NCBI GenBank assembly: GCA_040757335.1
Contig: JBFLXB010000019.1
Span: 1 to 64,000 of the forward strand
From: Nitrospirota bacterium
GTDB lineage: Bacteria > Nitrospirota > Nitrospiria > 2-01-FULL-66-17
Length of the DNA: 64,000 bases
Direction: 5' to 3'
The stretch's first letter is position 1; each line of letters starts with the position of its first letter. A model generated the notes under the pieces. The model ran no database searches and was not told the origin of the DNA. It saw only the letters and a program-made list of their open reading frames with translations. Of the stretch, positions 6,247 through 58,276 are shown piece by piece. A program made the translations under genes and the position numbers.

Positions 6247-6367
6247 GGGGCTGCTCAGAAAGCTCCAGCTGCAAGGCCGCAGCGAGGAGGAAACCGGAGC
6301 GTACGGGGTGGTACGTGAGGATTTCCGACGAGCGAGAACGCCGCAGATGGACTTTCTCAGCAGCCCC
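6247..6367 (-). repeat. Dispersed stop-codon-adjacent palindromic element, copy 1 (divergent)
   Basis: Inverted ends GGGGCTGCTCAGAAAG and CTTTCTCAGCAGCCCC (one mismatch) enclose the interior typical of the family: GCTGCAAGGCCGCAGC, an ACCGGAGCGTAC segment, and GAACGCCGCAGATGG. The outer base coincides with the TAG stop of the NifX-like gene, and the element follows that gene in its direction of transcription. The arms differ from other copies yet remain self-complementary. Confidence 0.85.
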
Positions 6368-6702
6368 TAATGCTGGATCTTCATTTCGACCTTCGCATCG
6401 CCCCGCTTGATGCCGAACACCTGCCCCACGGCTTCGTCCGAGGAGTCCACGGTGGTGAGGCGCGGCTCGATGCCGCGGGAAGTCAGATCCGCTTTCAACG
6501 CATCGCCGAAGGATTTGCCGATGACCATCTTGCAGTCAGCGACCGCCTCGAGCAGGGTCTTGTCATAGTAGCGGATCGTACGAAACACGACCTCGTTGCC
6601 CCGCATGTCGTAGACGACCACCAACGGCGGAGCGTCGGCAGAGTCTGCCACGCTGCAGTCGTCATTGGCGGCGACCGCCACCTTCTGTTCGACGTCACTC
6701 AT
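6367..6702 (-). CDS. NifX/NafY-like dinitrogenase cofactor-binding domain protein
   Basis: A 111-residue cytoplasmic protein. The segment from VVYDMRGNEVVFRTI through LLEAVADCKMVIGKSFGDAL and SRGIEPRLTTVDSSDEAV matches the pattern of the dinitrogenase iron-molybdenum cofactor fold (NifX, NafY, C-terminal NifB). In that fold an acidic/cysteine loop precedes a conserved IG..A/G helix and a GI strand. Such proteins bind FeMo-co or NifB-co, but stand-alone relatives occur in many non-diazotrophs. No nif gene is in this window, so a nitrogenase role is not supported. The residues before the domain are low-complexity. The stop codon abuts repeat copy 1. Confidence 0.65.
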   Translation of the reverse strand: MSDVEQKVAVAANDDCSVADSADAPPLVVVYDMRGNEVVFRTIRYYDKTLLEAVADCKMVIGKSFGDALKADLTSRGIEPRLTTVDSSDEAVGQVFGIKRGDAKVEMKIQH

Positions 6703-7086
6703 CGTCCCACCCCCGACTCACGCCAACGTTGTGTAGTAAGACCGCTGAGATAAAGCGGTTATTTACTGTGCTCCGCGCCGTCAGGCGCTGTCAATAGCGC
6801 CAAAGGCCACTCTGCACATGGCGCAGCATAGTCAATTTCACGTTGCCATGCAACCACCCGATGCATCTCCATGGCACCCCGGCCCCGGTCCGGGGCCTTC
6901 CTCCCCATTTGCGCCCACTCTTGAGGACTTTTTCCCCAACACTTTACCCTACCACGACCCCATCTCCTGATGCAGTTGGATTTTATGGGCATTTCCTGTG
7001 GACGGAAACCGGGCTTGTGCCTTGCATGAGTTCAATCAATAGCTTCACCACCCTTCACGCGTGACGCTCGTCACAGGAGTTTGCTC
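6703..7086. other. 384-bp non-coding stretch with hairpins
   Basis: No credible gene is seen on either strand; a 77-codon minus-strand frame lacks family features and a ribosome site. The stretch contains an ACCGCT/AGCGGT hairpin near 6741-6760. It also contains a strong GGCCCCG-GTC-CGGGGCC hairpin at 6881-6897 followed by a pyrimidine run, and pyrimidine-rich sequence before the small secreted protein gene. Promoters for the two flanking divergent genes must lie here, but none is close to consensus. Confidence 0.5.
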
Positions 7087-7380
7087 ATGATTCGCACGGT
7101 GCTTCCCTCTGTTGTGGCGGCCATGGCCACCCTTTTCGTGGCGCTCCCGATGGCTGCCGGCGCGGCCGCTGACCCTGCTCCGCTCGCCCCCAAACGGCTG
7201 GTGGTGGATTCGGTGTCGGCTCCGGTGTTGTCCATTGACCAGGCGGCTTTGCTGGTCGACATCGTCCTGGTCCCGGACGGCGACTACCAACCAGTGCATC
7301 CCGATTCCCTGGGCAATGCGGACGAAGCCCAATCGCCCGCATTGCCCGACGCGACGGGCGAAGAGACCGACAAGCCTTAG
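7087..7380 (+). CDS. Small secreted protein of unknown function
   Basis: A 97-residue protein with a clear signal peptide (MIRTVLPSVVAAMATLFVA, cleavage near AGA-AAD). The mature part of about 70 residues is rich in Pro, Asp and Ala (KRLVVDSVSAPVLSIDQAAL, then VPDGDYQPVHPDS) and lacks cysteines. ATG at 7087 has AGGAG 7 nt upstream; the in-frame TTG at 7081 is too close to that site. I recognise no family. The predicted product is periplasmic or extracellular. A degenerate repeat element starts immediately after its TAG stop. Confidence 0.65.
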   Translation: MIRTVLPSVVAAMATLFVALPMAAGAAADPAPLAPKRLVVDSVSAPVLSIDQAALLVDIVLVPDGDYQPVHPDSLGNADEAQSPALPDATGEETDKP

Positions 7381-7475
7381 CAGCCCGGCTCTTCCGCTGC
7401 GGCGCTGGTTTCGCTACAATCTCTCGCGGCTCCGTGCTCGCAGCGCCTTGCATCTGGCCCGTTCGCGAACAGGCT
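7381..7475 (+). repeat. Dispersed stop-codon-adjacent palindromic element, copy 2 (degenerate)
   Basis: The distal half (GTGCTCGCAGCGCCTTGC, ATCTGGCCCGTTCGCGAACA) is a clear family member, whereas the proximal arm (CAGCCCGGCTCTTCCGCTGC) is eroded. It starts directly after the TAG of the small secreted protein gene in the family's usual orientation and ends just before the metH promoter. A good -10-like TACAAT lies inside it at 7415-7420. Confidence 0.7.
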
Positions 7476-7478
7476 GAA

Positions 7479-7507
7479 TAGACGCCCCGGTTCTCCTCTG
7501 TTATCAT
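7479..7507 (+). promoter_or_regulatory. Probable metH promoter giving a leaderless message
   Basis: TAGACG at 7479-7484 and TATCAT at 7502-7507 are spaced 17 bp apart. The predicted start site coincides with the ATG of metH at 7514, and no Shine-Dalgarno site exists. Confidence 0.5.
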
Positions 7508-7513
7508 GCGGAC

Positions 7514-10975
<3,462 letters not shown>

Positions 10976-11047
10976 CGGGCGACGAGCGTGCGCGGAATCG
11001 GATCAACGTCGAGGAATATCCCGGTGTTGTCGACTGTTTTCCGAGTC

Positions 11048-11404
11048 ATGGGGTCGTGTATCCGACGAATTACCTCTCCGTTGGCCGCGCGAAGGCGCTT
11101 CCGCGCCACCGCCGCGGTCCTGCTTCTTGCCTACTTTGCGCTCGCAGGCGAGGCGATCCATTGCCAGTACTTCCCCACCGCGCACAACGAACACGCCGAC
11201 CACTCGACCACGCCGGTGCCCGCCACGGACCACGCGATCCATTGTCTGGTGGCGAATCACGCGGGATCCGCCGCTGTCAACGCCGACGGGTCCGCGCCGC
11301 TCCCGACCCTAACCCCCAACGTCCGCATCCTCTCGGACGAAGGACCTTCGCTCGTCTCGCACCTGGTCCGGCTCACGCCGGTCCGCGCACCGCCCGTTAG
11401 CTAA
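11048..11404 (+). CDS. Exported His/Cys-rich small protein
   Basis: A protein of about 118 residues with a basic N-terminus and one hydrophobic segment (FRATAAVLLLAYFALAGEA), then a short His/Cys-rich portion (AIHCQYFPTAHNEHADH, later DHAIHCLVANHAG). Two IHC motifs plus clustered His suggest metal binding outside the cytoplasm; this is inference from composition. Start choice is uncertain: GTG at 10988 gives 20 more residues, and neither start has a strong ribosome site. It follows metH by 72 bp and precedes the outer-membrane/cytochrome gene run on the same strand. I recognise no family. Confidence 0.55.
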   Translation: MGSCIRRITSPLAARRRFRATAAVLLLAYFALAGEAIHCQYFPTAHNEHADHSTTPVPATDHAIHCLVANHAGSAAVNADGSAPLPTLTPNVRILSDEGPSLVSHLVRLTPVRAPPVS

Positions 11405-11514
11405 CCCTCAGACATTCTCCATTTCGTTGCCGTAGGGCTGCAGTGCTCGCATCGTTGTGCGCGAGCGGCGGTCCGTTGAATTCATACTTTTCTTGATCGG
11501 CAAAGGAGAAGCCC

Positions 11515-12354
11515 ATGCAGGGAAGGGTGATCGGCACGGCCGCACTGGTAATTGTCCTGTCCGTGTTTGGCCAGGAGGCATTTGGCGCCCACATTCTCGA
11601 GCCATTGAACACCGAGATCGCCGCGACAACGCCGCGCGGCCGCATGTTCGGGCAGATCGTCTACGATTACGCGAAGTTCGAAAACGGAACGACCGTCAAG
11701 ACTCACTTGCTCCCGGTGGAGTTTGAGGTGGGCGTTGGCGAGCGTACCCAACTGAATCTGGAAGGAGTCATCGTCCTCCGCGAGGACACCGCAGGGGTCG
11801 ATGAAAGCGGGGTCGATGAACTCGCCTTCGGCGTCAAGCAGCGCTTTTGGGACGAAGGGCGTGTCGCGCCGGATATGGCGTTCGAGGCCGAATACGTCCC
11901 GTCGGCGGGGCTGACCGGCAACCACAAAGCCGTCGCCGCCACGCTGATCCTCTCAAAGAACGTGACGCCGCGATTCGTCCTGCACGTGAACGGCGGGTAC
12001 GAACTGGAAACCGAGCGGGAAACTGAGATCGAAACCGCGCCCGTGGGCATCGGCGGAGAGGACGTGGTGGTTGGCATCGCAGAGGAAGCCCACAACGAAG
12101 CGATCTGGTTCTACAACGTGGCGCCCATGATCAAGGTCATCCCAGACAAGCTGATGGTGTTGGCGGAATTCAACGGCCGCACCCCGGCGTCCGGCGATAC
12201 CGTGATGGTCGTCGCGCCGGAGATTATTGCGGTGCTCCAAAGCGACACGTTTCTCGCGCTTCAGAACGTCGCGTTCAAGTTCTCCGTGCCGTTCGGGCTG
12301 AATGACGAGTCGCCGGACATGGGGTTCCAATTCGGGATCTCGAAGTTGTTTTAA
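11515..12354 (+). CDS. Outer-membrane beta-barrel protein
   Basis: A 279-residue protein with a signal peptide (MQGRVIGTAALVIVLSVFGQ, cleavage near EAFG). Its body consists of alternating short amphipathic strands such as KTHLLPVEFEVGVGERTQLN, DELAFGVKQRFW and RFVLHVNGGYELE. It ends in an aromatic residue (FQFGISKLF), as expected for recognition by the barrel assembly machinery. AAAGGAG lies 7 nt before the ATG. The pattern resembles small transporter-like or porin-like barrels; no specific substrate can be named. It is the first of four closely spaced genes leading to the cytochrome-porin gene, so a shared role in the outer membrane is likely. Confidence 0.75.
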   Translation: MQGRVIGTAALVIVLSVFGQEAFGAHILEPLNTEIAATTPRGRMFGQIVYDYAKFENGTTVKTHLLPVEFEVGVGERTQLNLEGVIVLREDTAGVDESGVDELAFGVKQRFWDEGRVAPDMAFEAEYVPSAGLTGNHKAVAATLILSKNVTPRFVLHVNGGYELETERETEIETAPVGIGGEDVVVGIAEEAHNEAIWFYNVAPMIKVIPDKLMVLAEFNGRTPASGDTVMVVAPEIIAVLQSDTFLALQNVAFKFSVPFGLNDESPDMGFQFGISKLF

Positions 12355-12362
12355 CGCTCGCG

Positions 12363-12388
12363 CGGGTGGGCGCAAACGCGCCCACCCG
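12363..12388 (+). other. Perfect 11-bp intergenic hairpin
   Basis: CGGGTGGGCGC, a 4-nt loop, then GCGCCCACCCG form a perfect stem 8 bp after the barrel gene stop and 17 bp before the next start. There is no following U-tract, so a processing, stability or partial-attenuation role is likelier than full termination. Confidence 0.6.
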
Positions 12389-12404
12389 TCAATGGAGAAC
12401 AACC

Positions 12405-13085
12405 ATGCAGATCACCACAAAAGCCGGATTGATCGCCGTCCGGTGGGCCATGTTGGCGGTCATGCTCGCGGCGACACCGGTCGCCGCCCACGAGATCGTG
12501 GGGCAGGTCACCCCCTTGATGATCCACATGAAGCGGGCGCTGCTCCTCGCTGAAAACGGCAAGGCGCAGGAGGCGGTGGCCGAAGCCCGCGCCGTGTACG
12601 AGGACTTTGCCCATGAGATGGGCATGGGGATGACGATGGAAGGCGCGGGCTTGAAGAGCACCGCCGCGCAGATCGATCGAACCTTTGGCACACGGTTGGG
12701 CGAATCCCTGGAGCAGTCCCTTCAACGGAACGACGCTGACACGTTGAAGAAGACCATCCAGGAACTCGCCCTGCTGCTGATGATAGAGAAATTCAACGCG
12801 CTCCAAGCGAGCTTCGGCAAAGACACGGTGACGCTCGACACCCAGCGGACCATGTTCTGGCTCGGCCGAAACTACTTCTCCTATCTTCTTGAACCTACGC
12901 TCGCCGCCAAGGATCCGATCGAAGAGCAGCGCCTGGACCGCATGCTGGACGTCATGTTGTATCGGCTCGAAGACGGAGAGCACCAAAGTTTTCTCGATGC
13001 CAGACGAAACTTGCTGGGAGGGATTACCACGGCGTTTCGCTTGACGCTTCCGCAACAAGCCTCGGCGGGAATTCCTCGCGGATGA
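12405..13085 (+). CDS. Secreted alpha-helical protein, possible N-terminal histidine after cleavage
   Basis: A 226-residue exported protein. Signal peptide MQITTKAGLIAVRWAMLAVM ends PVAA, and the likeliest cleavage leaves His as the first mature residue (HEIVGQVTPLMIHMKRALLL). The rest is predicted helical, rich in Glu, Lys and Leu, with two Met-rich stretches (HEMGMGMTMEGAG and LLLMIEKFNAL). GGAG precedes the ATG by 8 nt. I recognise no family. Histidine and methionine content would suit copper or iron handling in the periplasm, but that is inference. The stop overlaps the start of the following membrane protein (ATGA), so the two are translationally coupled. Confidence 0.65.
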   Translation: MQITTKAGLIAVRWAMLAVMLAATPVAAHEIVGQVTPLMIHMKRALLLAENGKAQEAVAEARAVYEDFAHEMGMGMTMEGAGLKSTAAQIDRTFGTRLGESLEQSLQRNDADTLKKTIQELALLLMIEKFNALQASFGKDTVTLDTQRTMFWLGRNYFSYLLEPTLAAKDPIEEQRLDRMLDVMLYRLEDGEHQSFLDARRNLLGGITTAFRLTLPQQASAGIPRG

Positions 13086-13714
13086 AGATCACGCCGAACG
13101 ATCCGCAAACCTCCGTTGATCGGACCGGAGGGCTCAAGCTCCCCTCGCCGTGGGTGATCCTCGCCTGCCTGGTCCTGTTCGGTTTCGGGGAGACCGCGGG
13201 CGCGGCGCTGGGCGGACTGCCCAAACCCATTATGGACGTTGCCCGCGCGCAAGCCGTGACCCGGCCGGAAGTCCACGGCCTGTCCGGCGTGCCGGACATC
13301 GATCGTGCCATCATCGAAGGCGTGCAGACCGAGGTGCTGGCGCGGGTCCATACGTTTCATCTTCACGGTCACGGCCTGGCCATCGTGGTGTTTCTGCTGA
13401 CCTTTATCGTCACGAACACCGGCTTCACGCCTCGCGTCAAGACGCTGCTCACGACACTGACTTGCCTGGGCCTGCTCTATCCCTTTGGCTGGCTGACCAT
13501 GGCCTTGGCAGTGCCGGTGGCCGGGAAGGCGGAGGCCTTCCGCATCGCGGAACGTTGGTTTTTTATCCCCTTTGGCGGGGCGTTCTTAGTCGGGGTGTGG
13601 TTCATCGTATTGGCCTACACCGTCCACTGCCTGCGACGGAATGAAAAGCCGGCCCAACCTGTCTTGGAGGGAGGTGAGACTCAACCGTTTGAAAAACCGA
13701 ATAAGACTCCTTAG
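13082..13714 (+). CDS. Four-helix inner-membrane protein with His cluster
   Basis: A 210-residue protein with four hydrophobic segments: WVILACLVLFGFGETAGAAL, LAIVVFLLTFIV, LLTTLTCLGLLYPFGWLTMA and FIPFGGAFLVGVWFIVLAYT. A periplasmic-type loop follows the first segment and leads into VHTFHLHGHGL at the start of the second helix. A further His lies at the end of helix four (YTVHC). The paired helix histidines could bind heme b or a metal and could pass electrons between the quinone pool and periplasmic partners; that is a hypothesis only. ATGA overlap with the preceding gene, and 14 bp to the cytochrome-porin start, indicate an operon. Confidence 0.65.
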   Translation: MKITPNDPQTSVDRTGGLKLPSPWVILACLVLFGFGETAGAALGGLPKPIMDVARAQAVTRPEVHGLSGVPDIDRAIIEGVQTEVLARVHTFHLHGHGLAIVVFLLTFIVTNTGFTPRVKTLLTTLTCLGLLYPFGWLTMALAVPVAGKAEAFRIAERWFFIPFGGAFLVGVWFIVLAYTVHCLRRNEKPAQPVLEGGETQPFEKPNKTP

Positions 13715-13728
13715 CGGGAGGGCCGCTT

Positions 13729-15186
13729 TTGTGTAATTGGAAACCCCGCGTCCTCCTGGCGAGTTGGATCGCGGTGTTCGGGTTTAGCCTACTGGCTGCG
13801 TCACGGGTGGAAGCCATTCCGGCCTTTGCCCGCAAGTACGACATGGATTGTAGCCATTGCCACGTGATGGCGCCGAAACTCAACAAAGTCGGCAACAAGT
13901 TTCACGACAACTTCACGCTTAAGGAGGCCGTTGCCGACCTCTCGGAAGAGATGCGTGATCGCATCAAGTCAGAAGACCCCGAGGATATCCACCCGGCGTA
14001 CTGGCCCGTGTCGATCCGCGTGGCCGGGGGCTACCAGTACAACAAACGCGACAACCAGGCAACCGACAACGGACTGGAGACGATCACTACCCGGACGTTC
14101 GCGCTGACGCGTTTCGAAATCCTGGCCGGCGGCCTGTTTACGCCGGGAATTTCATACTATCTGACCTATTACCCGGAAGCCCTCAACGTGGGCCTGCCAG
14201 GCCAGCCGCCTGTTCACGCCCATCCGGGCGCGACCTCCGGAACAGCACAGGTGGGGGCCCTGGGGTTCGCATGGGTGCGGTTTGCCGACATCTTCGGCCA
14301 ATTCAGCGAAGCCGAGGATCACCCGCATGACGACGCGGCCGCCGATGAACATCCCCACGACGCCGAGGCCGAGCAGAAACACGAACACGGTCAGGATTTG
14401 ATCTTCGGCAGCCACGAGCTGCACCTGACGCTCTCCGGCCATCATCGGCTCACCAATGCTCCCTACCTCGCCTATCGGTATGACCCACGCTTCTCCCTAA
14501 ACTCCTCCGAGGGATTCCAGCTCGATGCGCCGCAACTGGGCGCGTCGCTGGACGGCGCGACCCCGTGGTTCGGCTACGCGGTCTCGGTGTACAACGGCAC
14601 CACCAGCTCAGCCGACGACAACCGCGCGCTGGATGTCTTTGCCACCGTGACCCAGGAATTCGGCGATCAGCGCTTTGGCGTCTTCGGCGTGCGGGGGATG
14701 GCCCCGACGAGCTTCGTGACCACCGGGGGCGGGACCACTCCGATTGCCGGGACCGGCAAGGATAACGCGGCGTTCTATCGCTTCGGAGCCGACGCCGATC
14801 TCAACTTCGGCCCGTTCAATCTGATGCTATTTGCGTTGTACGGGCAGGACGACAAGGATCTGTTCGGCACATCGTCCGCCACGCAGGACGCGAAGTACTA
14901 CAGCGGATTCATCGAGGGTGACTACATGCTCGAGTCGACCCGGACGATCGTGCTCGGACGCTACGACCTGATCCGCAACCTCGAACAGGGCATCAGCACC
15001 AACCCCAAGCAGCGCGGGGACGCCGATGCCCTCACCCTGGCCGTGCGGCGCGATCTCGTCCTGACGAGCCGCGTCAACCTTCAGTTCCAGTTGGAGGCGA
15101 ACACCATGCGCACGAAGGCCACGGCCCTGGGTGACAACGATCAGACCTCGAACACGGTATTTGCCGGGTTGGATTGGTCGTTTTGA
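13729..15186 (+). CDS. Monoheme cytochrome c-outer membrane porin fusion (Cyc2-like architecture)
   Basis: A 485-residue protein. The signal peptide is followed directly by IPAFARKYDMDCSHCHVMAP with a C41-x-x-C44-H45 heme c site, then PKLNKVGNKFHDNF. The remaining roughly 400 residues are alternating amphipathic strands of a beta-barrel and finish with GLDWSF. A His/Asp/Glu-rich loop at residues 195-221 (EDHPHDDAAADEHPH) could bind metal. One heme fused to a porin is the layout of Cyc2, the outer-membrane Fe(II) oxidase, whose usual length is also close to 485; many relatives are of unknown function. TTG is the start: GGGAGG lies 7 nt upstream and the nearby GTG is out of frame. It is the terminal gene of a four-gene run. 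Confidence 0.82.
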   Translation: MCNWKPRVLLASWIAVFGFSLLAASRVEAIPAFARKYDMDCSHCHVMAPKLNKVGNKFHDNFTLKEAVADLSEEMRDRIKSEDPEDIHPAYWPVSIRVAGGYQYNKRDNQATDNGLETITTRTFALTRFEILAGGLFTPGISYYLTYYPEALNVGLPGQPPVHAHPGATSGTAQVGALGFAWVRFADIFGQFSEAEDHPHDDAAADEHPHDAEAEQKHEHGQDLIFGSHELHLTLSGHHRLTNAPYLAYRYDPRFSLNSSEGFQLDAPQLGASLDGATPWFGYAVSVYNGTTSSADDNRALDVFATVTQEFGDQRFGVFGVRGMAPTSFVTTGGGTTPIAGTGKDNAAFYRFGADADLNFGPFNLMLFALYGQDDKDLFGTSSATQDAKYYSGFIEGDYMLESTRTIVLGRYDLIRNLEQGISTNPKQRGDADALTLAVRRDLVLTSRVNLQFQLEANTMRTKATALGDNDQTSNTVFAGLDWSF

Positions 15187-15264
15187 TGAGTCTGTTGCCG
15201 CAAAACACGAAATATTTCACCATTGGGTGATCGCTAAGCCCAAGGATATTAAGGAGTTTTGACG

Positions 15265-17718: not shown

Positions 17719-17890
17719 TATGCGAATGCCTGCCAACTAGATCGTAGTTGAAGCGACCAGGTTCCACCGAAAGGCCGCCTAACGGATTGTGAATAACGAT
17801 TGTTTCCGACGATTACGCGACGACCGATTCGCACGTGCGCGAAGGCCGGTGGGCAACACGCTTCATTCCGGAAGTGACGGGCGGGCGATG

Positions 17891-18703: not shown

Positions 18704-18737
18704 GTTGTCACCTGTAATGGGTCCCTTCTCCTTGCCT

Positions 18738-18758
18738 CCTCCCCCCTTGCGGGGGAGG
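18738..18758. repeat. G/C-rich hairpin between thiC and thi4
   Basis: CCTCCCCC, a 5-nt loop, then GGGGGAGG form a stable stem in the thiC-thi4 gap, followed by GGGCAGGGTGGGGG on the plus strand. This resembles short G-rich hairpin repeats scattered in many bacterial genomes. Without a U-tract on the coding (minus) strand it is more likely a repeat or stability element than a terminator. Confidence 0.5.
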
Positions 18759-18772
18759 GCAGGGTGGGGGTC

Positions 18773-20929
<2,157 letters not shown>

Positions 20930-20935
20930 AAGCGA

Positions 20936-21099: not shown

Positions 21100-22107
21100 A
21101 TGCCTTTGATCGCTCGACTCGTTCCCACCGTGACCCTCGTCATCGGCCTTGCCCACGCCATCGCCTCGGCGGCCGACGAGGTGGTGGTCTACAGTTCGAG
21201 GAACGAACAACTCATCAAACCCCTCTTCGACGCTTACACCAAGGAAACCGGCGTCCACGTACGGTTCATCACCGACAAGGAAGGCCCCCTCATCGAGCGC
21301 CTCAAGGCCGAGGGCTCCAACACCCCGGCGGACCTCCTGATCACGGTCGACGCGGGCAATTTGTGGTTCGCAGGCGACGAAGGCCTGCTGCGGGCGGTGG
21401 AATCCCACGCGCTGCGCGCCAACATTCCCGAGGCGTGGCGCGATCCCGACAACCGGTGGTTCGGGCTCACGGTCCGCGCGCGGACCATCGTGTACAACAC
21501 GAAACGCGTCAAACCGACTGACTTGTCCTCCTACGAAGACCTCGGGACCGCCAAATGGAAGAAACGGCTCTGCTTACGCACGTCGAAAAAAGTTTATAAC
21601 CAATCGCTGGTCGCGATGATGATCGCGGAGCTGGGTGAAGCCAAAACCGAGGCGATCGTCCGTTCGTGGGTCGCCAATCTCGCCACCGACGTGTTTTCCG
21701 ACGACACGGCGATGATCGAGGCAATTGCCGCGGGCCAATGTGACGTCGGCATCGCCAACACCTACTACTTCGGACGGTTCAAGAGCAAACACCCCGACGC
21801 TCCTGTTGCCTTGTTCTGGCCCAATCAGGGCGATCGCGGCGTCCACGTGAACGTCTCCGGAGGCGGCGTGACCCGCCACAGCAAACGCGCCGCCGCGGCG
21901 GTTCGTCTGCTGGAATGGCTCTCGTCCCCGTCGGCGCAGAAGATCTTTACCGAGATCGACTTCGAATATCCCGCAAATCCCTCTGTCGCGCCGTCCCCGA
22001 CCGTGGCGGCGTGGGGCACGTTTCGATCCGATCCCATCAATGTGTCGAAGGCCGGAGAGTTGCAGCGCGCGGCGGTGATGTTGATGGACCGGGCAGGCTA
22101 CCGGTAA
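21100..22107 (+). CDS. Ferric-iron ABC transporter periplasmic binding protein (FbpA/FutA family)
   Basis: A 335-residue exported protein. MPLIARLVPTVTLVIGLAHA forms the signal, cleaved near ASA-ADE. The mature part begins VVVYSSRNEQLIKPLFDAYT, the usual first strand of this iron-binding cluster. The adjacent tyrosines Y222-Y223 (ANTYYFGRF) are the conserved Fe(III) ligands. GGAG lies 6 nt before the ATG. An overlapping palindrome on the promoter suggests control by Fur. The permease gene follows after a 130-bp gap filled by a repeat element. No ATP-binding subunit is encoded beside them. Confidence 0.92.
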   Translation: MPLIARLVPTVTLVIGLAHAIASAADEVVVYSSRNEQLIKPLFDAYTKETGVHVRFITDKEGPLIERLKAEGSNTPADLLITVDAGNLWFAGDEGLLRAVESHALRANIPEAWRDPDNRWFGLTVRARTIVYNTKRVKPTDLSSYEDLGTAKWKKRLCLRTSKKVYNQSLVAMMIAELGEAKTEAIVRSWVANLATDVFSDDTAMIEAIAAGQCDVGIANTYYFGRFKSKHPDAPVALFWPNQGDRGVHVNVSGGGVTRHSKRAAAAVRLLEWLSSPSAQKIFTEIDFEYPANPSVAPSPTVAAWGTFRSDPINVSKAGELQRAAVMLMDRAGYR

Positions 22108-22111
22108 AGAT

Positions 22112-22236
22112 GAGCCTGACCATCAAGGGCCATCTGCGGCGTTGCCGCTGCGCTTCCGGTGCTCACGTACGCAACCAGTACGCTGCGCTCCGGTGCTCGC
22201 GGCGCCTAGCATCTGGCCCGTTGGTGGTCAGTCTGA
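22112..22236 (+). repeat. Dispersed stop-codon-adjacent palindromic element, copy 3
   Basis: Arms CCTGACCATCAAGGGCC and GGCCCGTTGGTGGTCAG are complementary with few mismatches but differ in sequence from other copies. The interior shows two direct copies of GCTGCGCTxCCGGTGCTC on either side of CACGTACGCAACCAGTAC. It begins 4 nt after the TAA of the binding-protein gene and ends at the ATG of the permease gene, so it fills the whole intergenic gap of this operon. Confidence 0.9.
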
Positions 22237-28315: not shown

Positions 28316-28348
28316 ATCTTCTCCTAAATACTAGTCTCGAAATCCATC

Positions 28349-28470
28349 AGCCTGTTCAGGAACGCGCCAGATGCAAGGCGGAGTGAGCACCGCACCGCAG
28401 CGTACTCGGTATGTACGTGAGGAGCGGATGCGCAGCGACAACGCCGCAGATGGCCGTTCATGGACAGGCT
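28349..28470 (-). repeat. Dispersed stop-codon-adjacent palindromic element, copy 4
   Basis: Arms AGCCTGTTCAGGAACGCGCC and GGCCGTTCATGGACAGGCT are the commonest arm type. Between them are ATGCAAGGCGGAG, a GTACTCGGTATGTACGTGAG core and GCGACAACGCCGCAG. It starts one base after the TAG of rpmJ in the direction of transcription and lies between rpmJ and rpsM. Confidence 0.92.
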
Positions 28471-28471
28471 C

Positions 28472-28585
28472 CTACCCTTGTCGCTGTTTGTGCCGCGGGT
28501 TCTCGCAAATTACGCGAACGACTCCGCGACGCTTGATGATCTTGCACTTCGCACAAATCGTTTTAATCGATGATCGCACTTTCAT
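28472..28585 (-). CDS. rpmJ: Ribosomal protein bL36
   Basis: A 37-residue zinc-binding large-subunit protein, [20 protein letters not shown] then [17 protein letters not shown]. The three Cys and one His of the zinc site (C-x2-C, C, H) are present, so this is the zinc form. GGGGGAA precedes the ATG. It lies between infA and rpsM, the usual order. Confidence 0.97.
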
Positions 28586-38872: not shown

Positions 38873-38894
38873 AATGACACCGTTTCTGTCTGTG

Positions 38895-39015
38895 AGCCCG
38901 CGCAGGAAGGGTCAGATGCAAGGCGGAGCGAGCACCGGAGCGGAGCGTACTGGGTGCGTACGTGAGCACCGGGTGCGCAGCGACAACGCAGCAGATGACC
39001 CTTCATCCGCGGGCT
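38895..39015 (-). repeat. Dispersed stop-codon-adjacent palindromic element, copy 5
   Basis: Arms AGCCCGCGCAGGAAGGGTCA and TGACCCTTCATCCGCGGGCT differ from copy 4 at several paired positions, but both sides have changed together. The interior has GAGCACCGGAGCGGAGCG and GAGCACCGGGTGCGCAGCG around TACTGGGTGCGTAC. It begins one base after the rplW TAG. Confidence 0.93.
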
Positions 39016-39016
39016 C

Positions 39017-39367
39017 CTATCCTCCCTCGAACAGGTCGAGCTTCTGACCCGGCTTCAACGTCACGATCCCCTTCTTCCACGACGGTTCTCGCCCTTCGAA
39101 TCGCCCGAGCCGCTTGGTTTTGCCCCGCACGTTGACGATGTTGACCGACGCCACCTTGACCTTCAGCGCTTCTTCGACCGCCTTCTTCACTTCCGACTTG
39201 TTGGCCCGAGACGAGACCATGAACGAGATCTGGTTGTGCTCTTCGCGCAAGCGCGTGCTTTTTTCCGTCAGGAGCGGAGCAATCAAAATATCGTGGGGAT
39301 CGACCCGCAAACCCGGGGCGTTTCCGGTCGCGGCCTTGGGCGTCGCCTTTCGCGGCGCCGCGCTCAT
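39017..39367 (-). CDS. rplW: Ribosomal protein uL23 with N-terminal extension
   Basis: A 116-residue protein. The L23 core (DILIAPLLTEKSTRLREEHN, FMVSSRANKSEVKKAVEEAL) is preceded by about 24 Ala/Pro/Lys-rich residues. ATG 39367 overlaps the rplD stop (ATGA) and is preferred over an in-frame GTG 6 nt upstream. L23 is the docking site for trigger factor and SRP at the tunnel exit. Confidence 0.95.
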   Translation of the reverse strand: MSAAPRKATPKAATGNAPGLRVDPHDILIAPLLTEKSTRLREEHNQISFMVSSRANKSEVKKAVEEALKVKVASVNIVNVRGKTKRLGRFEGREPSWKKGIVTLKPGQKLDLFEGG

Positions 39368-41188: not shown

Positions 41189-41214
41189 GTCGTCTTGTTC
41201 TTTCTTTCCCCGGA

Positions 41215-41351
41215 GCCTGTTCAGGAATGCGTCAGATGCAAGGCGCCGCGAGACCCGGATCCTGTAGGGGCGTATTGCAATACGCCCCTACGAATGACGC
41301 GAGGACCGGAAGCGCAGCGGCAACGACGCAGATGACCGCTCATGGACAGGC
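41215..41351 (-). repeat. Dispersed stop-codon-adjacent palindromic element, copy 6, carrying a nested palindrome
   Basis: Arms GCCTGTTCAGGAATGCGTCA and TGACCGCTCATGGACAGGC frame the usual interior, but its centre is replaced by a 28-bp palindrome (41264-41291, GTAGGGGCGTATTG plus its complement). It begins 3 nt after the tuf stop. Nearly the same sequence lies after the second tuf gene (copy 10). Confidence 0.93.
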
Positions 41352-41354
41352 GCC

Positions 41355-42545
<1,191 letters not shown>

Positions 42546-42606
42546 GTGCGTCTCCCTTAACCCCGGTTCTCATTCAAGCGGGGCTTACTGAATGCTTCGG
42601 CCAGTT

Positions 42607-42728
42607 GAGCCCGTTCAGGGATGGCCAGATGCCAGGCGGAGCGAGCACCGGAGCGCAGCGTACTGGGTGCGTACGTGAGCACCGAAGCGCAGCGACAACG
42701 CCGCAGATGGCCATTCATGGACGGGCTC
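42607..42728 (-). repeat. Dispersed stop-codon-adjacent palindromic element, copy 7
   Basis: Arms GAGCCCGTTCAGGGATGGCC and GGCCATTCATGGACGGGCTC. The interior shows an 18-bp direct repeat, GAGCACCGGAGCGCAGCG (42643-42660) and GAGCACCGAAGCGCAGCG (42677-42694). It touches the TAG of fusA and separates fusA from tuf. Confidence 0.93.
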
Positions 42729-44810
42729 CTACCCACCCTGCACCTTCGCAACGATCTGATCGGCAATCGGTTTCGGCACCATGTCGTAGTGCGCGAACTG
42801 CATGGTAAAGGTGCCGCGACCCTGGGTCTTGGACCGCAGATCGGTGGCGTAGCCGAACATCTCGGCCAGCGGCACCTCGGCGGTGATGACCTGCGCCGAC
42901 CCCCTCGCCTTCATCCCTTGAATCTTGCCGCGCCGCGAGTTGAGATCACCGATCACGTCCCCCATATAATCCTCGGGCACGATCACTTCCAGCGACATGA
43001 TCGGCTCCAGCAACACGGGATTCGCCTTTTTCGCGGCCTCCTTGAAACCCATCGAGCCCGCGATCTTGAACGCCATTTCCGACGAGTCCACGTCGTGGTA
43101 CGAGCCGTCGACGATCCTCACCTTGATGTCCACCATGGGATAGCCCGCGACCACGCCGTTTTCCATGGCCTCGCGCACCCCTTTTTCCACGGCGGGAATA
43201 TACTCCCTAGGGACTCTTCCGCCCACGATCTTGTTTTCGAACTCAAAGCCCTTGCCAGGTTCCTGGGGCTCGATCTCCAAGACCACGTGCCCATACTGCC
43301 CGCGCCCGCCGGTCTGCCGGATATATTTGCCTTCCGCCCCCGACGCCGTTCGGATCGTCTCCCGGAACGCCACCTGGGGTTTGCCGACGTTGGTTTCGAC
43401 CTTGAACTCCCGCTTCAGACGATCGACGATGATCTCCAGATGCAACTCCCCCATCCCGGCGATGAGCGTTTGCATGGTCTCTTCGTCGGTCGAAACCCGC
43501 AGCGAGGGATCCTCTTGCGCGAGCTTCTGGAGGGCGAGCCCCATCTTTTCTTGATCCGGTTTGGTCTTGGGCTCGATCGCCATCTGGATCACCGGTTCGG
43601 GGAACTTCATCACTTCGAGCAGAACCGGATGATCCTCGTCGCAGAGCGTGTCACCGGTGGTGGCGCCCTTGAGTCCCACCGCCGCGCCGATCTCTCCGGC
43701 GTACATCTCCTTGACCTCTTCGCGTTTGTTGGCGTGCATCTTGAGAATGCGCCCGATCCGTTCCTTGCTGTCCTTGGTCGCGTTGTAGATGTACGAGCCC
43801 GATTTCAAGATGCCCGAGTAGACGCGGAAAAAGGTGAGCTGCCCCACGAACGGATCGGTCATGATCTTAAAAGCCAGTGCCGAAAATTTTTCGTTGTCGT
43901 CGGGACGACGCGTGACCTCCTGCTGGGTCTTCATGTCGACCCCGGTCACCGGCGGAATGTCCAAGGGCGACGGCAAGTAGTCCACCACGGCATCCAAGAG
44001 CAACTGCACGCCCTTATTCTTAAATGAGGCGCCGCAGAGGACCGGGACGACCTTCATATCAAGCACGCCCTTGCGGATCGCGGCCTTCAGTTCCTCAACC
44101 GTCGGCGACTCGCCGGCGAGATACCGCTCCATCACGGTCTCATCGCAATCCGCGAGCGCCTCGATCATCTTCTCCCGATACTCGTGCGCTTGGTCTTTGA
44201 GATCCCCCGGGATCTCGTCCACGACGAACTTCGCTCCGAGCGTTTCGTCGTCGAAAAAGACCCCTTTCATAGTGAGCAGGTCGACCGGGCCTCGGAACGT
44301 GCTCTCCTTTCCAATGGGGAGCTGAAGGCAGACCGGGCGAACTCCCAGCCGGTCCACCAACGACTGCACGCTCGCGAAGAAATCAGCCCCGATCCGGTCC
44401 ATCTTGTTCATGAACGCGATGCGGGGCACGCGATACTTGTCCGCCTGTCGCCAGACGGTTTCGGACTGCGGCTCCACCCCTTGCACCGAGTCGAACACCG
44501 CAACCGCGCCGTCCAACACCCGCAGGGAGCGCTCGACTTCGATCGTGAAGTCCACGTGCCCCGGGGTGTCGATGATGTTGATCCGATAGTCCCTCCAGAA
44601 ACAGGTCGTGGCGGCGGCCGTGATCGTGATCCCGCGCTCGCGTTCCTGCTCCATCCAATCCATGGTGGCCGAGCCCTCGTCCACCTCGCCGATCCGATGG
44701 GTCACGCCGGTGTAATACAAGATGCGCTCGGTGGTCGTGGTTTTGCCCGCGTCGATATGCGCCATGATCCCGATGTTGCGGGTCCGCTCTAATGGGTACT
44801 GACGAGGCAC
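42729..44810 (-). CDS. fusA: Elongation factor G
   Basis: A 693-residue translocase GTPase. Domain I carries [42 protein letters not shown] and [10 protein letters not shown]. Domains II-V are complete, including [18 protein letters not shown] and the C-terminal domain V. GTG start with AAGGA 6 nt upstream. Between rpsG and tuf in the str order. Confidence 0.99.
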
Positions 44811-45351: not shown

Positions 45352-45414
45352 GGCTGCCTCCCATCGTTGCCGTCGCTGCCCGATTCTGCCCGGTCACCAT
45401 CAGTCCGTTCCGCG

Positions 45415-45786: not shown

Positions 45787-45863
45787 GCTGATCCTTGTGG
45801 CCGCACCCGCCCCGAACGCCCCGTTTTAGGCCTCGATGGGAGATGCTGGCGAAAAACTTTGGA

Positions 45864-45892
45864 AGTATATGGAAACACACGGGCCATGTCAA
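45864..45892 (-). promoter_or_regulatory. Strong str-block promoter upstream of rpsL
   Basis: On the minus strand TTGACA (45892-45887) and TATACT (45869-45864) are spaced exactly 17 bp. Predicted start near 45857 gives a leader of about 70 nt. It lies in the rpoC-rpsL gap and partly inside a 39-bp imperfect palindrome. Confidence 0.85.
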
Positions 45893-45918
45893 GCGTTTTT
45901 GCGCTCGCGCATGGCCCG
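45880..45918. promoter_or_regulatory. Imperfect palindrome over the -35 box of the rpsL promoter
   Basis: CGGGCCATG (45880-45888) and CATGGCCCG (45910-45918) are perfect inverted repeats around an inner AGCG/CGCT pair with an A-rich loop. It lies just after rpoC, so it could be a weak rpoC terminator, a regulator site, or both. Confidence 0.5.
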
Positions 45919-45940
45919 ATCCGAATCATCCCGAATCGGA

Positions 45941-50098
<4,158 letters not shown>

Positions 50099-50122
50099 CC
50101 CCCTTTAGTGAGCGGTCAGCCG

Positions 50123-50321
50123 GGCCTGTTCAGGAACGCGCCAGATGCAAGGCGGAGCGAGAACCGGAGCTGTAGGGGCGTATTGCAATACGCCCCTACG
50201 AGGACGTGAGCACCGGAAGCGCAGCGACAACGCCGCAGATGGCCGTTGCTTCGCCACCTGCAGGGTGCTTGCGATCTGTTTAACATTCGCGCCCTTGGCG
50301 CGCGCAGGTTCATGGACAGGC

Positions 50322-50322
<1 letters not shown>
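50123..50322 (-). repeat. Dispersed stop-codon-adjacent palindromic element, copy 8, with two insertions
   Basis: Outer arms GGCCTGTTCAGGAACGCGCC and GGCCGTT...TTCATGGACAGGCC frame the element. The 28-bp palindrome GTAGGGGCGTATTG plus complement lies at 50172-50199, in the same internal position as in copies 6 and 10. A further insert of about 60 bp (about 50247-50306) splits the proximal arm; it begins with GCTTCGCCACCTG, shared with the hairpin at 59922-59968. The element touches the TAG of rpoB. Confidence 0.92.
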
Positions 50323-54290
<3,968 letters not shown>

Positions 54291-54323
54291 TACGCCTCCC
54301 ATCCGAGCTTGCTGTCCGCACCG

Positions 54324-54345
54324 CAGGCGCAGAGCGTCGCGCCTG
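54324..54345 (-). other. Hairpin in the rplL-rpoB gap
   Basis: CAGGCGC, an 8-nt loop and GCGCCTG form a perfect 7-bp stem in the gap between rplL and rpoB. In E. coli this gap holds an attenuator and an RNase III site that reduce rpoBC expression relative to rplJL; a similar role is plausible but unproven. Confidence 0.45.
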
Positions 54346-54390
54346 GGCTGCGAGAGGTTGACGAGCCTTCACCACGTCCGGCTGGTCCGG

Positions 54391-54780
54391 CTACTTGATC
54401 TCGACCTTTGCGCCGACCTCTTCCAGTTTCTTCTTCATGGTTTCGGATTCTTCCTTGGCCACACCCGCTTTCACCGGCTTGGGCACGCCTTCGACCAAGT
54501 CTTTGGCTTCTTTGAGGCCCAGGTTGGTCAGTTCGCGCACCACCTTGATGACCTGGATCTTCTTGTCAGCGGGAACCGTGGTCAGGATCACGTCGAAAGC
54601 GGTCTTCTCCTCGACGGCCGCCGCGCCGCCCGCCGCCGCACCGGGCGCCGCCATCATGGCCACCGGCGCCGCGGCCGTCACGCCGAACTTCTCCTCCAGC
54701 GCTTTGACCAGCTCCGAGAGCTGGAGCACCGGCATCGCTTCAACCGCTTTGATGATGTCGTCATTCGTCAATGTTGCCAT
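54391..54780 (-). CDS. rplL: Ribosomal protein bL12 (L7/L12)
   Basis: A 129-residue stalk protein. The N-terminal dimerisation helix pair, the Ala/Gly-rich hinge ([18 protein letters not shown]) and the C-terminal factor-binding domain ([40 protein letters not shown]) are all present. It starts 30 nt after rplJ. Confidence 0.98.
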
Positions 54781-54810
54781 TTCGAAATCTCCTTCCCAAC
54801 AGTCAATGGT

Positions 54811-55341
54811 TTATCCCGCTTCGGCCGCGCGTTTCTTGGCTACCGCGTCCAAGGTCGACACCGCTTTTCGCACGATCCCTTGAAGACTTCCCACCAACCC
54901 CGAGACCGGCGCCTGCATCCGGCCCACCAGTCGGCCCAGCAACTCCTGGCGCGAGGGGAGCGAGGCTACCCGGGTGAGCCCCGCGACGTCCAACACGCGG
55001 CCTTCCAACCAACCCATGCGCAGCTTGAGCTTGTCTTGTTGGCCCGCGAAGTCCTTCAGGGCTTTCGCCAGGGGTGCCGGATCGCCGTACCCCAGCGCCA
55101 CGCCGACGGGACCGTCGAAGTAGTCCCGCAAACCCACCAGCGTCGTCCCTTCGGCCGCCCGCCGAGCCAGGGTGTTCTTGACCACCTTGAACTCCGCACC
55201 GACGGCGCGCAGCTTTCCTCTCAGCACCCGCATCTCTTCGACCTCGAGACCCCGATACTCCGCCACGACCGCCATTTGGGCTTTGGCGAATCGCTCGTGG
55301 ATCTCGTCGATCAGGACCGCCTTTTCTGCCTTGCCTTTCAC
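54811..55341 (-). CDS. rplJ: Ribosomal protein uL10
   Basis: A 176-residue stalk-base protein, KAEKAVLIDEIHERFAKAQM with VVAEYRGLEVEEMRVLRGKL, and a C-terminal helix that binds L12 dimers. GTG 55341 is the start; an ATG 9 nt upstream is out of frame and followed at once by a stop. It lies behind an L10 leader RNA. Confidence 0.96.
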   Translation of the reverse strand: MKGKAEKAVLIDEIHERFAKAQMAVVAEYRGLEVEEMRVLRGKLRAVGAEFKVVKNTLARRAAEGTTLVGLRDYFDGPVGVALGYGDPAPLAKALKDFAGQQDKLKLRMGWLEGRVLDVAGLTRVASLPSRQELLGRLVGRMQAPVSGLVGSLQGIVRKAVSTLDAVAKKRAAEAG

Positions 55342-55464
55342 TGGTTCATCTCCCTCCTTTCAATCGTCGCGGAAGACTCTTCTCGGATGCCATCCCCGAG
55401 ACGACTGGGAGGTTGACCACGAGCAACGCGCAGGGTGAACACTGCCGTTGCGAGGAATCGATCC

Positions 55465-55600
55465 CATTTCGTCTCGGTAGGACGCCCGGAACGCTTCTCG
55501 CTCCGTCGTTTACGCCAACCGGCTCCTACGGTCTTAGACGAACACCGCCGGCCCCAACGCCTGCAGGACCAGCGGCCCGTTGGTGTTGCGCTCTATCTGG
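55465..55600 (-). promoter_or_regulatory. L10 (rplJL) leader RNA
   Basis: On the minus strand the untranslated leader contains AGACCGTAGGAGCCGGTT, AACGACGGAGCGAG and CGTCCTACCGAGACG. These form the paired CGTAGGAG/CTCCTACG-type stem and kink-turn motif of the bacterial L10 leader, where the L10-L12 complex represses its own synthesis. It fills most of the 277-bp rplA-rplJ gap, which holds no gene. Confidence 0.8.
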
Positions 55601-55618
55601 TGAGTTGTTCCTTTACGA

Positions 55619-56311
55619 CTACGACGCCGGCCGTTCGATGCTGGCCGCGTCCACTTTGATCCCCGGCCCCATGGTCGCTGACACCGACACCGAGCGCAAA
55701 TACGTGCCTTTGGCCGCCGCCGGCTTCGCTTTGATGATGGAGTCCAGAATCGACTGGGCGTTGTCGTGCAGCTTGGCCACCTCGAACGAGGCTTTGCCCA
55801 CCGGAACATGCACGATGCCCGCTTTTTCCACCTTGTACTCGACCTTTCCCTGGCGAATCTCGCGGATCGCACGCGCAACGTCGAAGGTCACGGTTCCGGT
55901 CTTGGGATTCGGCATCAGGCCGCGGGGACCCAGAATCTTCCCCAGTCGGCCGACCAATCCCATCAAGTCCGGCGTGGCCACGACTCGGTCGAACTCCATC
56001 CACCCCTTGGTGATTTTGTCGGCCAGGTCCTCCGCGCCGACGTGGTCGGCCCCGGCTTCACGCGCCTCGCGCTCTTTGTCGCCCTTGGCGAACACAACGA
56101 TGGTGACGGTCTTGCCCATCCCGTGCGGGAGCACCACCGACCCGCGAACCATCTGATCGGAGTGCTTGGGATCGACTCCCAGTCGAACTGCGAGGTCAAC
56201 CGAGGCGTCGAACTTCACCACGCTCGTGGCTTTCGCCAGCTCCAGTGCTTCCCGCAACGGATACGATGGCGATTGGACCCGTTGTTTGGCCGCTTGATAT
56301 TTCTTCCCCAT
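55619..56311 (-). CDS. rplA: Ribosomal protein uL1
   Basis: A 230-residue L1-stalk protein, [20 protein letters not shown] with [20 protein letters not shown] and [19 protein letters not shown] 56311 is taken; the open frame reaches upstream into rplK and is a shadow there. It starts 19 nt after rplK. Confidence 0.98.
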
Positions 56312-56330
56312 GATCTCAATTCCCCTCGGG

Positions 56331-56756
56331 CTATTTGACGACTTGCAGACCCATGCTTCGAGCCGTGCCTTCAATGATCTTGATCGCACCTGGGAGGTCG
56401 ACCGCGTTGAGATCGGGCAACTTGGTCTTGGCGATCTCCTGGATCTGCGTCGACGTGACTTTCCCCACTTTGTCCTTGTGCGGAACTGCCGACCCCTTGA
56501 CGACACCGGCGGCCTTCTTTAACAGGTCTGAGGCGGGCGGGGTCTTCGTGATGAACGTGAACGTGCGATCGGCATAGACCGTAATCACCACCGGGATGAT
56601 GGAATCGCCGAGCGCTTGGGTTCTCGCGTTAAACGTCTTGCAGAATTCCATGATGTTGACGCCGTGTTGCCCCAAGGCCGGTCCCACCGGTGGTGCGGGA
56701 TTCGCCTTTCCCGCCGGAATCTGCAATTTGACCATCGCCGTCACGACCTTTGCCAT
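56331..56756 (-). CDS. rplK: Ribosomal protein uL11
   Basis: A 141-residue GTPase-centre protein, [20 protein letters not shown] with the rRNA-binding C-domain ([20 protein letters not shown]). Repeat copy 9 separates it from nusG. Confidence 0.98.
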
Positions 56757-56831
56757 ACGCGTCCTTTCCTACTTGTCCAACTTGAACGGTTTCAACAACG
56801 CCCTAAAGCCTGTCCGAGTTACCGCGAGAGC

Positions 56832-56957
56832 GGAGCCTGTTCAGGAAAGGCCAGATGCAAGGCGCCGCAGAGCACCGGAGCGGAGCGTACTGAGTGCGTA
56901 CGTGAGCACCGGAGCGCAAGCGGTAACGCGGCAGATGGCTTTTCATGGACAGGCTCC
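56832..56957 (-). repeat. Dispersed stop-codon-adjacent palindromic element, copy 9
   Basis: Arms GGAGCCTGTTCAGGAAAGGC and GCTTTTCATGGACAGGCTCC. Here ACGCGCC of copy 4 is replaced by AAAGGCC, and the opposite arm has changed from GGCCGTT to GGCTTTT, keeping the pairing. It touches the TAG of nusG. Confidence 0.93.
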
Positions 56958-57490
56958 TAGACCTTCTCGACCTGGAGAAACCCCAGTTCGACCGGCGTCG
57001 ACCGCCCGAAGATGCTCACCAGCACTTTGACCTTGGAGTGCTCCTGGTGCACCTCATCCACAATCCCATTGAAGCCCAGGAACGGACCGTCGATGATGCG
57101 CACGCTCTCGCCTTTTTGAAATTGCGTCTTGCTTCGCGGCTTGACCGCCGTGGAGTCCATCTGACTCATCAACGTGCTCATCTCGTCCTCGGTGATCGGG
57201 GTGGGATAGGCCTCGCCCCCGCCCACGAATCCGGTCACTTTCGGCGTGTTTTTCACCAGCTGCCACGTCGTGTCGTTCATGTCCATTTCGACGAGCACGT
57301 ACCCCGGGAAAAATTTCTTGGTCGACATCCGTCGCTTGCCCTCGCGGATCTCGACCACCTCCTCGGTGGGGATCATCACCTTTCGGATCTGGTCGGACAG
57401 CCCGAAGGACTTCGCGCGTTCCTCAATGGCCTGTTTGACCCGGTTTTCAAAGCCCGCATACGTATGTACGACGTACCACGACGCTGCCAT
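56957..57490 (-). CDS. nusG: Transcription antitermination/elongation factor NusG
   Basis: A 177-residue protein: NGN domain ([40 protein letters not shown]) and a C-terminal KOW domain ([20 protein letters not shown]). ATG 57490 gives the usual length and has GAGGA 7 nt upstream. An alternative ATG at 57568 overlaps the secE stop (ATGA) and would add 26 residues of unusual sequence; both may be used. Confidence 0.96.
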
Positions 57491-57564
57491 CCGTCGATCC
57501 TCGCCTGCCTGTTCCTTGACCCGGGGCTCCTGCGTGGCTCCCGGGGTTCGTTCGCTCGCGCCGC

Positions 57565-57759
57565 TCATTGCAGCAACACGGCCACCAGTTTGACGAGCAC
57601 CGCGTCCATCGCTGAAAGGAAGATGGCCACCACGGCGACGAAGATCAACACCACCGACGTGGACCCCACGGTTTCCGCACGGGTCGGAAAGGAGACTTTC
57701 TTGAGTTCCGCTCCCACCTCGGAAAAGAATTCCTTGGCTCGAAGATACAGCTTCTTCAT
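57565..57759 (-). CDS. secE: Preprotein translocase subunit SecE
   Basis: A 64-residue single-span membrane protein with an amphipathic N-terminal helix (AKEFFSEVGAELKKVSFPTR) and one transmembrane helix (TSVVLIFVAVVAIFLSAMDA). It clamps SecY in the translocon. Its position before nusG and after tRNA-Trp is standard. Confidence 0.97.
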   Translation of the reverse strand: MKKLYLRAKEFFSEVGAELKKVSFPTRAETVGSTSVVLIFVAVVAIFLSAMDAVLVKLVAVLLQ

Positions 57760-57860
57760 TCCGTCGTCCTCAATCTTCTCGCCCCGGTCTTCTGACCGGA
57801 GCCTATGGTGCCGCCGAACATCATCCGACGCAAAACCTATGTTGCCTCCGCAAGCGAGGA

Positions 57861-57937
57861 TGGCAGGCCAGGAGGGATTCGAACCCCCATCCCGCGGTTT
57901 TGGAGACCGCTGCTCTAGCCGTTGGAGCTACTGGCCT
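57861..57937 (-). tRNA. tRNA-Trp (CCA anticodon)
   Basis: Acceptor AGGCCAG pairs with CTGGCCT, followed by discriminator G and an encoded CCA tail. The anticodon loop reads CTCCAAA with anticodon CCA. The T-arm GGGTTCGAATC is normal. It lies between rpmG and secE, as in many bacteria. Confidence 0.97.
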
Positions 57938-57961
57938 TCGTGCCGCGTGCGCTGCAGCGCG

Positions 57962-58111
57962 TCACTTCACTTCCTTGTGCCCGGTGTGTTTGCGGCAGCG
58001 CTTGCAGTACTTCTTGAGTTCCAAACGATCCGGCGTGTTGCGTCGGTTCTTCGTCGTGGAATAATTCCGTTCTTTGCAATCCAAACACGCCAAGGTAATG
58101 ATCTCTCTCAT
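57962..58111 (-). CDS. rpmG: Ribosomal protein bL33
   Basis: A 49-residue zinc-ribbon form: [49 protein letters not shown], with the four cysteines CxxC and CxxC. It lies between tuf copy B and tRNA-Trp, its usual position. Confidence 0.97.
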
Positions 58112-58139
58112 CGATCTGCCCTTTGATTATTTTGATCGA

Positions 58140-58276
58140 CGCCTGTTCAGGAGCGCGCCAGATGCCAGGCGGAGCGCACCGGATCCTGCAGGGGCGTATT
58201 GCAATACGCCCCTACGAATGACGCGAGGACCGGAAGCGCAGCGACAACGCCGCAGATGGCCGCTCATGGACAGGCG
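58140..58276 (-). repeat. Dispersed stop-codon-adjacent palindromic element, copy 10, carrying a nested palindrome
   Basis: Arms CGCCTGTTCAGGAGCGCGCC and GGCCGCTCATGGACAGGCG. The A-to-G change in the left arm (GGAGCG) is matched by T-to-C in the right arm (CGCTC). The nested palindrome (58189-58214) occupies the same internal position as in copies 6 and 8. It begins 2 nt after the tuf stop. Confidence 0.93.

Follow-up and report, generated by a model that had tools for sequence, protein, structure and literature searches.

A probable non-autonomous mobile repeat of Nitrospirota found mostly at stop codons and mostly in one orientation

The ten palindromic copies present in the window analysed here (the whole stretch of 64,000 nt) belong to a high-copy family of palindromic extragenic repeats, as REPs and REPINs are, with roughly one to two hundred copies per genome in this Nitrospirota bacterium and its relatives. 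The copies lie mostly at stop codons and mostly in one orientation, and in this way the family has spread through essential operons without breaking proteins. We infer that the repeat is mobile, and we think it probable that it is a non-autonomous, hairpin-forming MITE- or REP-like element of Nitrospirota which inserts at CTAG and whose placement at stop codons is maintained by its harmlessness there.

A profile built from the copies recovered all ten sites of the window and no further significant one, the remaining weak matches being non-significant. The gap between stop and repeat ranges from 0 to about 4 nt and the sense relative to the upstream gene is identical in all ten, so that the original prediction of ten palindromic copies with a fixed gap and orientation behind stop codons was borne out at every site. 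A 15-mer of the repeat matches eight times in the window, with 0.13 matches expected by chance; the window had been chosen for its density of copies, and its 10 in 64 kb exceed the sample average. The motif quoted at the outset fared less well, as the repeat is present at the ten sites but GAGCCTGTCCATGAA occurs exactly in only two copies.

Nine of the ten copies are good. Within the array of translation and RNA polymerase genes, all on the minus strand, copies are found at the TAG stops of rpmJ (copy 28348-28473, 117 bits; gene 28472-28585, minus strand, identified by the L36 Pfam match and its translation), rplW (38893-39018; profile match and orthologous-site comparison), fusA (42606-42730; profile match, orthologs and Pfam) and nusG (56833-56958; profile match and Pfam), the tail of the nusG copy being still recognisable downstream in the sequence (CGGACAGGCTTTAG). 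Three further minus-strand copies follow the TGA stop of one tuf gene (41213-41355, by profile match), the TAG stop of rpoB (50123-50321) and the TGA stop of the second tuf gene (58139-58279). These three carry a nested GTAGGGGCGTATTGCAATACGCCCCTAC palindrome in their loop, at 41264-41291, 50172-50199 and 58188-58215, respectively, and in the rpoB copy a CAGGTGGCGAAGCAAC module of ~60 nt (50245-50309) replaces the 5' arm. A minus-strand copy at 6248-6366 (profile match of 67 bits and sequence) has the arms of a second subfamily (GGCTGCTGAGAAAG) and directly adjoins the TAG stop of the ORF at 6367-6702 on the same strand. On the plus strand, the copy at 22110-22236 (103 bits) lies 4 nt past the TAA stop of a solute-binding-protein gene (21100-22107, by Pfam), and a degenerate copy at 7381-7481 follows the TAG stop of a small secreted-protein ORF (7087-7380), its profile match being confined to the 3' half (7429-7475, E = 4e-7). 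The predicted identities of the upstream genes held for seven of them by Pfam (L36, L23, EF-Tu, EF-G, NusG, EF-Tu and solute-binding protein) and for rpoB by position and tblastn orthology; the NifX-like and the small secreted ORFs had no Pfam match.

The inner repeat is an imperfect palindrome of ~125 nt. Intact copies measure ~157 nt, have an additional third arm and are bounded by CTAG on both sides. They follow one plan: CTAG, arm A, core, arm A' (which pairs imperfectly with A), spacer, arm A'' (which pairs perfectly with A) and CTAG. In intact copies of G001 and G002, two genomes that share a family, though not a genus, with that of the window, the spacer is followed by the third arm, ending in CGGACAGGCTCCTAG, which pairs perfectly with the 5' arm TAGGAGCCTGTCC. 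Intact copies are therefore bounded by terminal inverted repeats, TAGGAGCCTGTCC and GGACAGGCTCCTA, as MITEs are. The second subfamily leaves the three-arm plan and the core unchanged and has CTAGCAGGCTGCTGAAAAAGTC as its arms. In G237, a Nitrospiraceae-like genome, the tail is longer and again ends in that arm, often with CTA or CTAG. No Rfam family matched at the element sites.

Our sample of the window's own genome comprised 1.26 Mb, made up of 20-kb stretches plus the flanks of matches, with genes called by a home-made, simple dicodon-model caller, and contained 84 copies of the element. A longer model gave 145 copies with a readable left end from three genomes, for which we measured how far the T of the element's TAG lies from the start of the nearest stop codon. 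The distances peak at 0 (55 copies) and are at most 8 nt in 101 of the 145. In the own genome, 45 of 63 such copies lie within 8 nt of a stop, where uniform placement in free intergenic space predicts 11.1. The corresponding counts for G001 and G002, incomplete MAGs whose stretches were taken around matches and are hence non-random samples, are 28 of 36 and 28 of 46; among copies flanked by called genes on both sides they are 28 of 35 (5.9 expected on the same basis) and 27 of 43 (7.9 expected). In G237, which belongs to another family, 10 of 28 copies start exactly at a stop and 16 are within 4 nt of one. A general rule that any palindrome in this genome sits at stops can be dismissed, since all nine GTAGGGG palindromes of the own-genome sample are more than 30 nt away from stops.

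Copies found equally in both orientations and away from stop codons had been named beforehand as the genome-wide outcome that would speak against the original prediction, and this is not what we observed: between tandem genes, 93 copies are in the sense orientation and 19 in the antisense orientation (p = 7e-13; 46:7, 24:4 and 23:8 by genome). Where the tail is intact the ratio falls to 22:10, compared with 71:9 for all remaining copies (p = 0.02), a difference that favours selection after insertion, with the caveat that tail loss may itself depend on position.

The sequence at the junctions points to a defined target. C precedes the TAG in 29 of 47 stops bearing an element, compared with 90 of 355 empty TAG stops (p = 1.6e-6). 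Away from stops, most left ends also start with TAG and C precedes in 22 of 33 copies, while a G follows the terminal CTA of the tail in 35 of 42. C-TA-G is thus found at both junctions, in line with the CTAG preference of IS630-type MITEs. Element-free CTAG sites in the own-genome sample number 62 at stops, 162 in other intergenic positions and 208 within genes; stops make up 28% of the usable CTAG sites in this sample and 36% in the stretches of the relatives. As 33 of the 42 CTAG-flanked copies are at stops, CTAG targeting accounts for much of the placement but not for all of it, and either selection or some additional targeting has to be invoked, most simply selection against insertions upstream of genes. 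In eight copies it is the tail and not the head that lies exactly on a stop, one of the opposite strand, an arrangement permitted by the palindromic target.

Comparison with orthologous genes revealed empty sites. The fusA and rpoB orthologs of both G001 and G002 terminate at the same codon (TAA, TGA or TAG) with no repeat behind it, as do the nusG ortholog in G002 and the tuf gene upstream of rpsJ in G001. One clean pair is available, a filled site (L194) reading TAG-element-TAG-GCGCC-ATG and its empty counterpart in G001 reading TAA-GATTT-ATG, which fits a duplication of 2, 3 or 4 nt equally. The CTAG/TAG signature, the possible duplication of TA and the empty sites with the stop at the junction support the earlier suggestion of an insertion aimed at stop codons. 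The rplW site is occupied in the own genome and in G002 and empty in G001, and the stems differ on both sides between the genera. For several genes, orthologous stops are occupied in both G000 and G001/G002 by very different copies, more commonly than the low occupancy suggests; either repeated insertions or conversion between copies could be behind this. The element-free junctions of G001/G002 between fusA and tuf, rpoB and rpoC, and nusG and rplK (L201, L225 and L224) often hold other, unrelated palindromes.

The core of the repeat is restricted in its exact form and widespread in its relatives. Among 84,980 species genomes, a listing that may omit records very near the window's own genome, the exact core pattern was found only in the Nitrospirae MAGs RIFCSPHIGHO2_01_FULL_66_17 and NC_groundwater_959. 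Of 246 genomes of the phylum, 94 contain relatives of the repeat that keep the core and have other arms, i.e. over one third of the Nitrospirota genomes sampled, with more than 100 candidate copies in G001, which is 88% complete, and ~198 in G182.

The two strands also differ in how well they fold. The mean fold energy is -58.7 kcal/mol for the gene-sense RNA and -68.9 kcal/mol for the antisense strand, the latter folding better in 111 of 112 copies. In an alignment of 46 copies, 99.1% of the cells of the antisense structure are paired and 18 of 38 pairs show double changes; the doubly changed cells amount to 147, compared with 46 in shuffles, which do not remove relatedness, and shifting the pairing partner along the alignment destroys the structure. 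On the sense strand, apart from one invariant U·G pair, A·C (71) exceeds G·U (13). Conservation of base pairing on the mRNA strand, as expected of a functional 3'-UTR RNA, was not found. Since it is the antisense fold that is conserved, selection would have acted on single-stranded DNA or RNA antisense to the gene, and not on the 3' end of the mRNA.

This bears directly on the second idea put forward in the original prediction, namely that the repeat is a 3'-UTR RNA element held at stops by selection for mRNA processing, stability or ribosome release. The tight gap to the stop together with the orientation, the copies in highly expressed operons and the orthologous stops that are filled in both genera would all suit such a function, and the orientation bias could reflect selection on transcripts. 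Furthermore, REPs of E. coli within 15 nt of stops are reported to stall ribosomes (PMC12306157). Nevertheless we consider this function improbable and unsupported by our data, as the wobble pairs of the conserved antisense fold become non-pairing A·C combinations in the mRNA, the orthologs of fusA, tuf, rpoB and nusG do without the repeat, and CTAG governs placement also away from stops. Moreover, a copy shared by L229 and L164 has decayed in its 3' arm without compensation, so that we cannot claim in situ selection on the hairpin. Far less probable still is that translation sets position and orientation through a coupled small frame. The element starts with TAGGAG, 7 nt and ATG in 112 of 145 copies, the stop codon overlapping a well-spaced, Shine-Dalgarno-like AGGAG visible in the sequence, and a terminating ribosome might restart there to make an element-encoded peptide. 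However, the lengths of the ORFs are scattered (47, 34, 31, 46, 43... codons), some staying open beyond the element, the frame changes from copy to copy through indels of one base in the core, and 19 copies have AGG in place of the ATG.

The strand-specific fold would be at home in a REP- or REPIN-type element whose movement depends on a RAYT (Y1, TnpA-REP) acting on a folded single strand, and a link to such an enzyme had been suggested for this repeat. We rate a RAYT-moved element of this type as unlikely, and likewise the more specific proposal that the antisense strand folds, that CTAG/TAG serves as the head tag and that the single-strand mechanism itself fixes the orientation to the stop. 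One strand does fold far better, with conserved mismatches and wobbles, the ends of the palindrome are TAG-tagged, and published GTAG REPs are found beside 3' ends, where they provide TAG stops (PMC3733652). Of seven genomes searched for Y1_Tnp loci, five have them, G000, G001 and G002 included. The association itself was not found: a copy lies within 1.6 kb of one of eight own Y1 loci, about what density predicts, and of none of nine in other genomes, none of the Y1 loci tested is a RAYT flanked by this repeat, and the repeat-rich G182 has no Y1_Tnp match. On contig 34 of G000 (L092, L094 and L096), three Y1 transposase (RAYT) genes are clustered with a different repeat of their own, GAAAAAGTAGCCTGTCCCC / GAAAAAGTAGCCTGTCCCCTTTTCGGT. 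The presence of CTA/TAG at both ends is also unlike the one-sided head tag of REPs; where that tag would be expected, at the foot of the palindrome, we find CTAG/NTAG with a variable, host-derived base before the TAG.

The preferred reading, a CTAG-targeting MITE-like element, faces difficulties of its own. A palindromic target leaves the 5:1 orientation bias unexplained, and a fold and covariation restricted to one strand are atypical of MITEs that move by double-strand cut-and-paste and better suited to a single-strand mechanism. Furthermore, we found no transposase with matching ends. None flanked the gene at the DDE_3 loci L242-L244, in incomplete genomes, and G001, for all its candidate copies, contains neither DDE_3 nor DDE_Tnp_1 genes. 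DDE_Tnp_1, considered as a source, was rejected because its loci lack matching ends. No full-length parent with left and right ends 0.3-3.5 kb apart was found, and two pairs of ends ~1.9 kb apart in L172 were discarded as parents, as they join halves of separate copies. A tentative alternative, to which we give somewhat more credence than to a RAYT, is a putative single-strand enzyme acting across the phylum, which would recognise the folded antisense strand and join it to (C)TAG with a fixed polarity, restoring the TAG and fixing the orientation.

For the CTAG-targeting MITE-like element, we envisage the following. The target would be CTAG or, less strictly, TAG or TAA, of which TA up to the whole CTAG would be duplicated. 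In this GC-rich genome, amber stops account for much of the CTAG present in non-coding sequence, and an insertion at an amber stop would re-create TAG from TA and the first G of the element, leaving the protein unchanged. Insertions inside genes would be lost and others partly purged by purifying selection, and CTAG targeting, TAG re-creation and purging together would give the 0-4 nt spacing. The orientation may stem from an insertion with strand polarity or, more likely in part, from selection removing opposite-facing copies in operons, because in these the tighter hairpin would enter the mRNA. The orientation bias is thereby explained only partly.

Several known systems share features with the repeat. 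Its target, an empty site compatible with TA duplication and perfect terminal inverted repeats are those of IS630/Tc1-mariner MITEs; titles in the reference list of PMC2170065 attribute a CTAG preference to IS630 (Tenzen and Ohtsubo 1991), and the text of that article, on ISY100, reports TA duplication. The strand-specific fold and the orientation bias would not be expected of such MITEs, and we found no IS630 transposase with these ends. With the REPIN-RAYT/TnpA-REP system it has in common non-coding palindromes, a conserved, mismatch-bearing hairpin on one strand and a tag that includes TAG (PMC2817692, PMC8266576), but it differs in length and architecture and no copies flank the Y1 genes tested. 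The assumption that ordinary REPs lack such placement was wrong, as GTAG-tagged REPs lie near the 3' end of the upstream gene and often provide its TAG stop (Di Nocera et al. 2013, PMC3733652). These GTAG REPs and REP dimers are likewise high-copy, TAG-tagged palindromes, mainly between tandem or convergent genes. While stop-adjacent REPs are thus already published, the Nitrospirota family is distinct in its unit, a single ~157-nt three-arm repeat, in its tags, with CTAG at both ends, in its strong, fixed orientation, in a core that is common across the phylum with exchangeable arms, and in having no RAYT gene alongside. The REPs of E. coli can also form a hairpin very close after the stop codon, but ~11% of them lie within 15 nt (PMC12306157), compared with 71% within 8 nt here, and the sequence differs. 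We found no published description of the Nitrospirota repeat, including by a literature search with sequence strings.

Integron attC sites, too, are imperfect palindromes right behind stops, with a fixed orientation and one strand that folds better, features that the repeat shares. The attC core GTTRRRY/RYYYAAC is absent from the consensus ends, and the Nitrospirota copies are dispersed in essential operons and not arranged in a cassette array.

We believe that this family offers a clear and testable case of mobile DNA that evades harm by way of stop codons, among them the stops of rpoB, fusA, tuf and genes for ribosomal proteins. Targeting and RNA function, which are usually mixed in REP-like repeats, can be separated here, as three countable features are available: the strand that folds, the base at the target and the orientation. 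If a single-strand enzyme were indeed at work, the stop codon would be a safe harbour by mechanism.

Some further features of the sequences were observed. The two tuf genes of the window are 97% identical, and the identity continues beyond the stop into the element and its nested insert (41255-41554 and 58179-58478), which in sequence terms suggests a gene conversion or duplication that took in the repeat. The CAGGTGGCGAAGCAAC module is also found at 59892-59998, where it forms an inverted repeat of its own among tRNA genes, and a similar module is present in about four other element copies. Finally, Rfam identified a TPP riboswitch on the minus strand of the window at 20823-20929.
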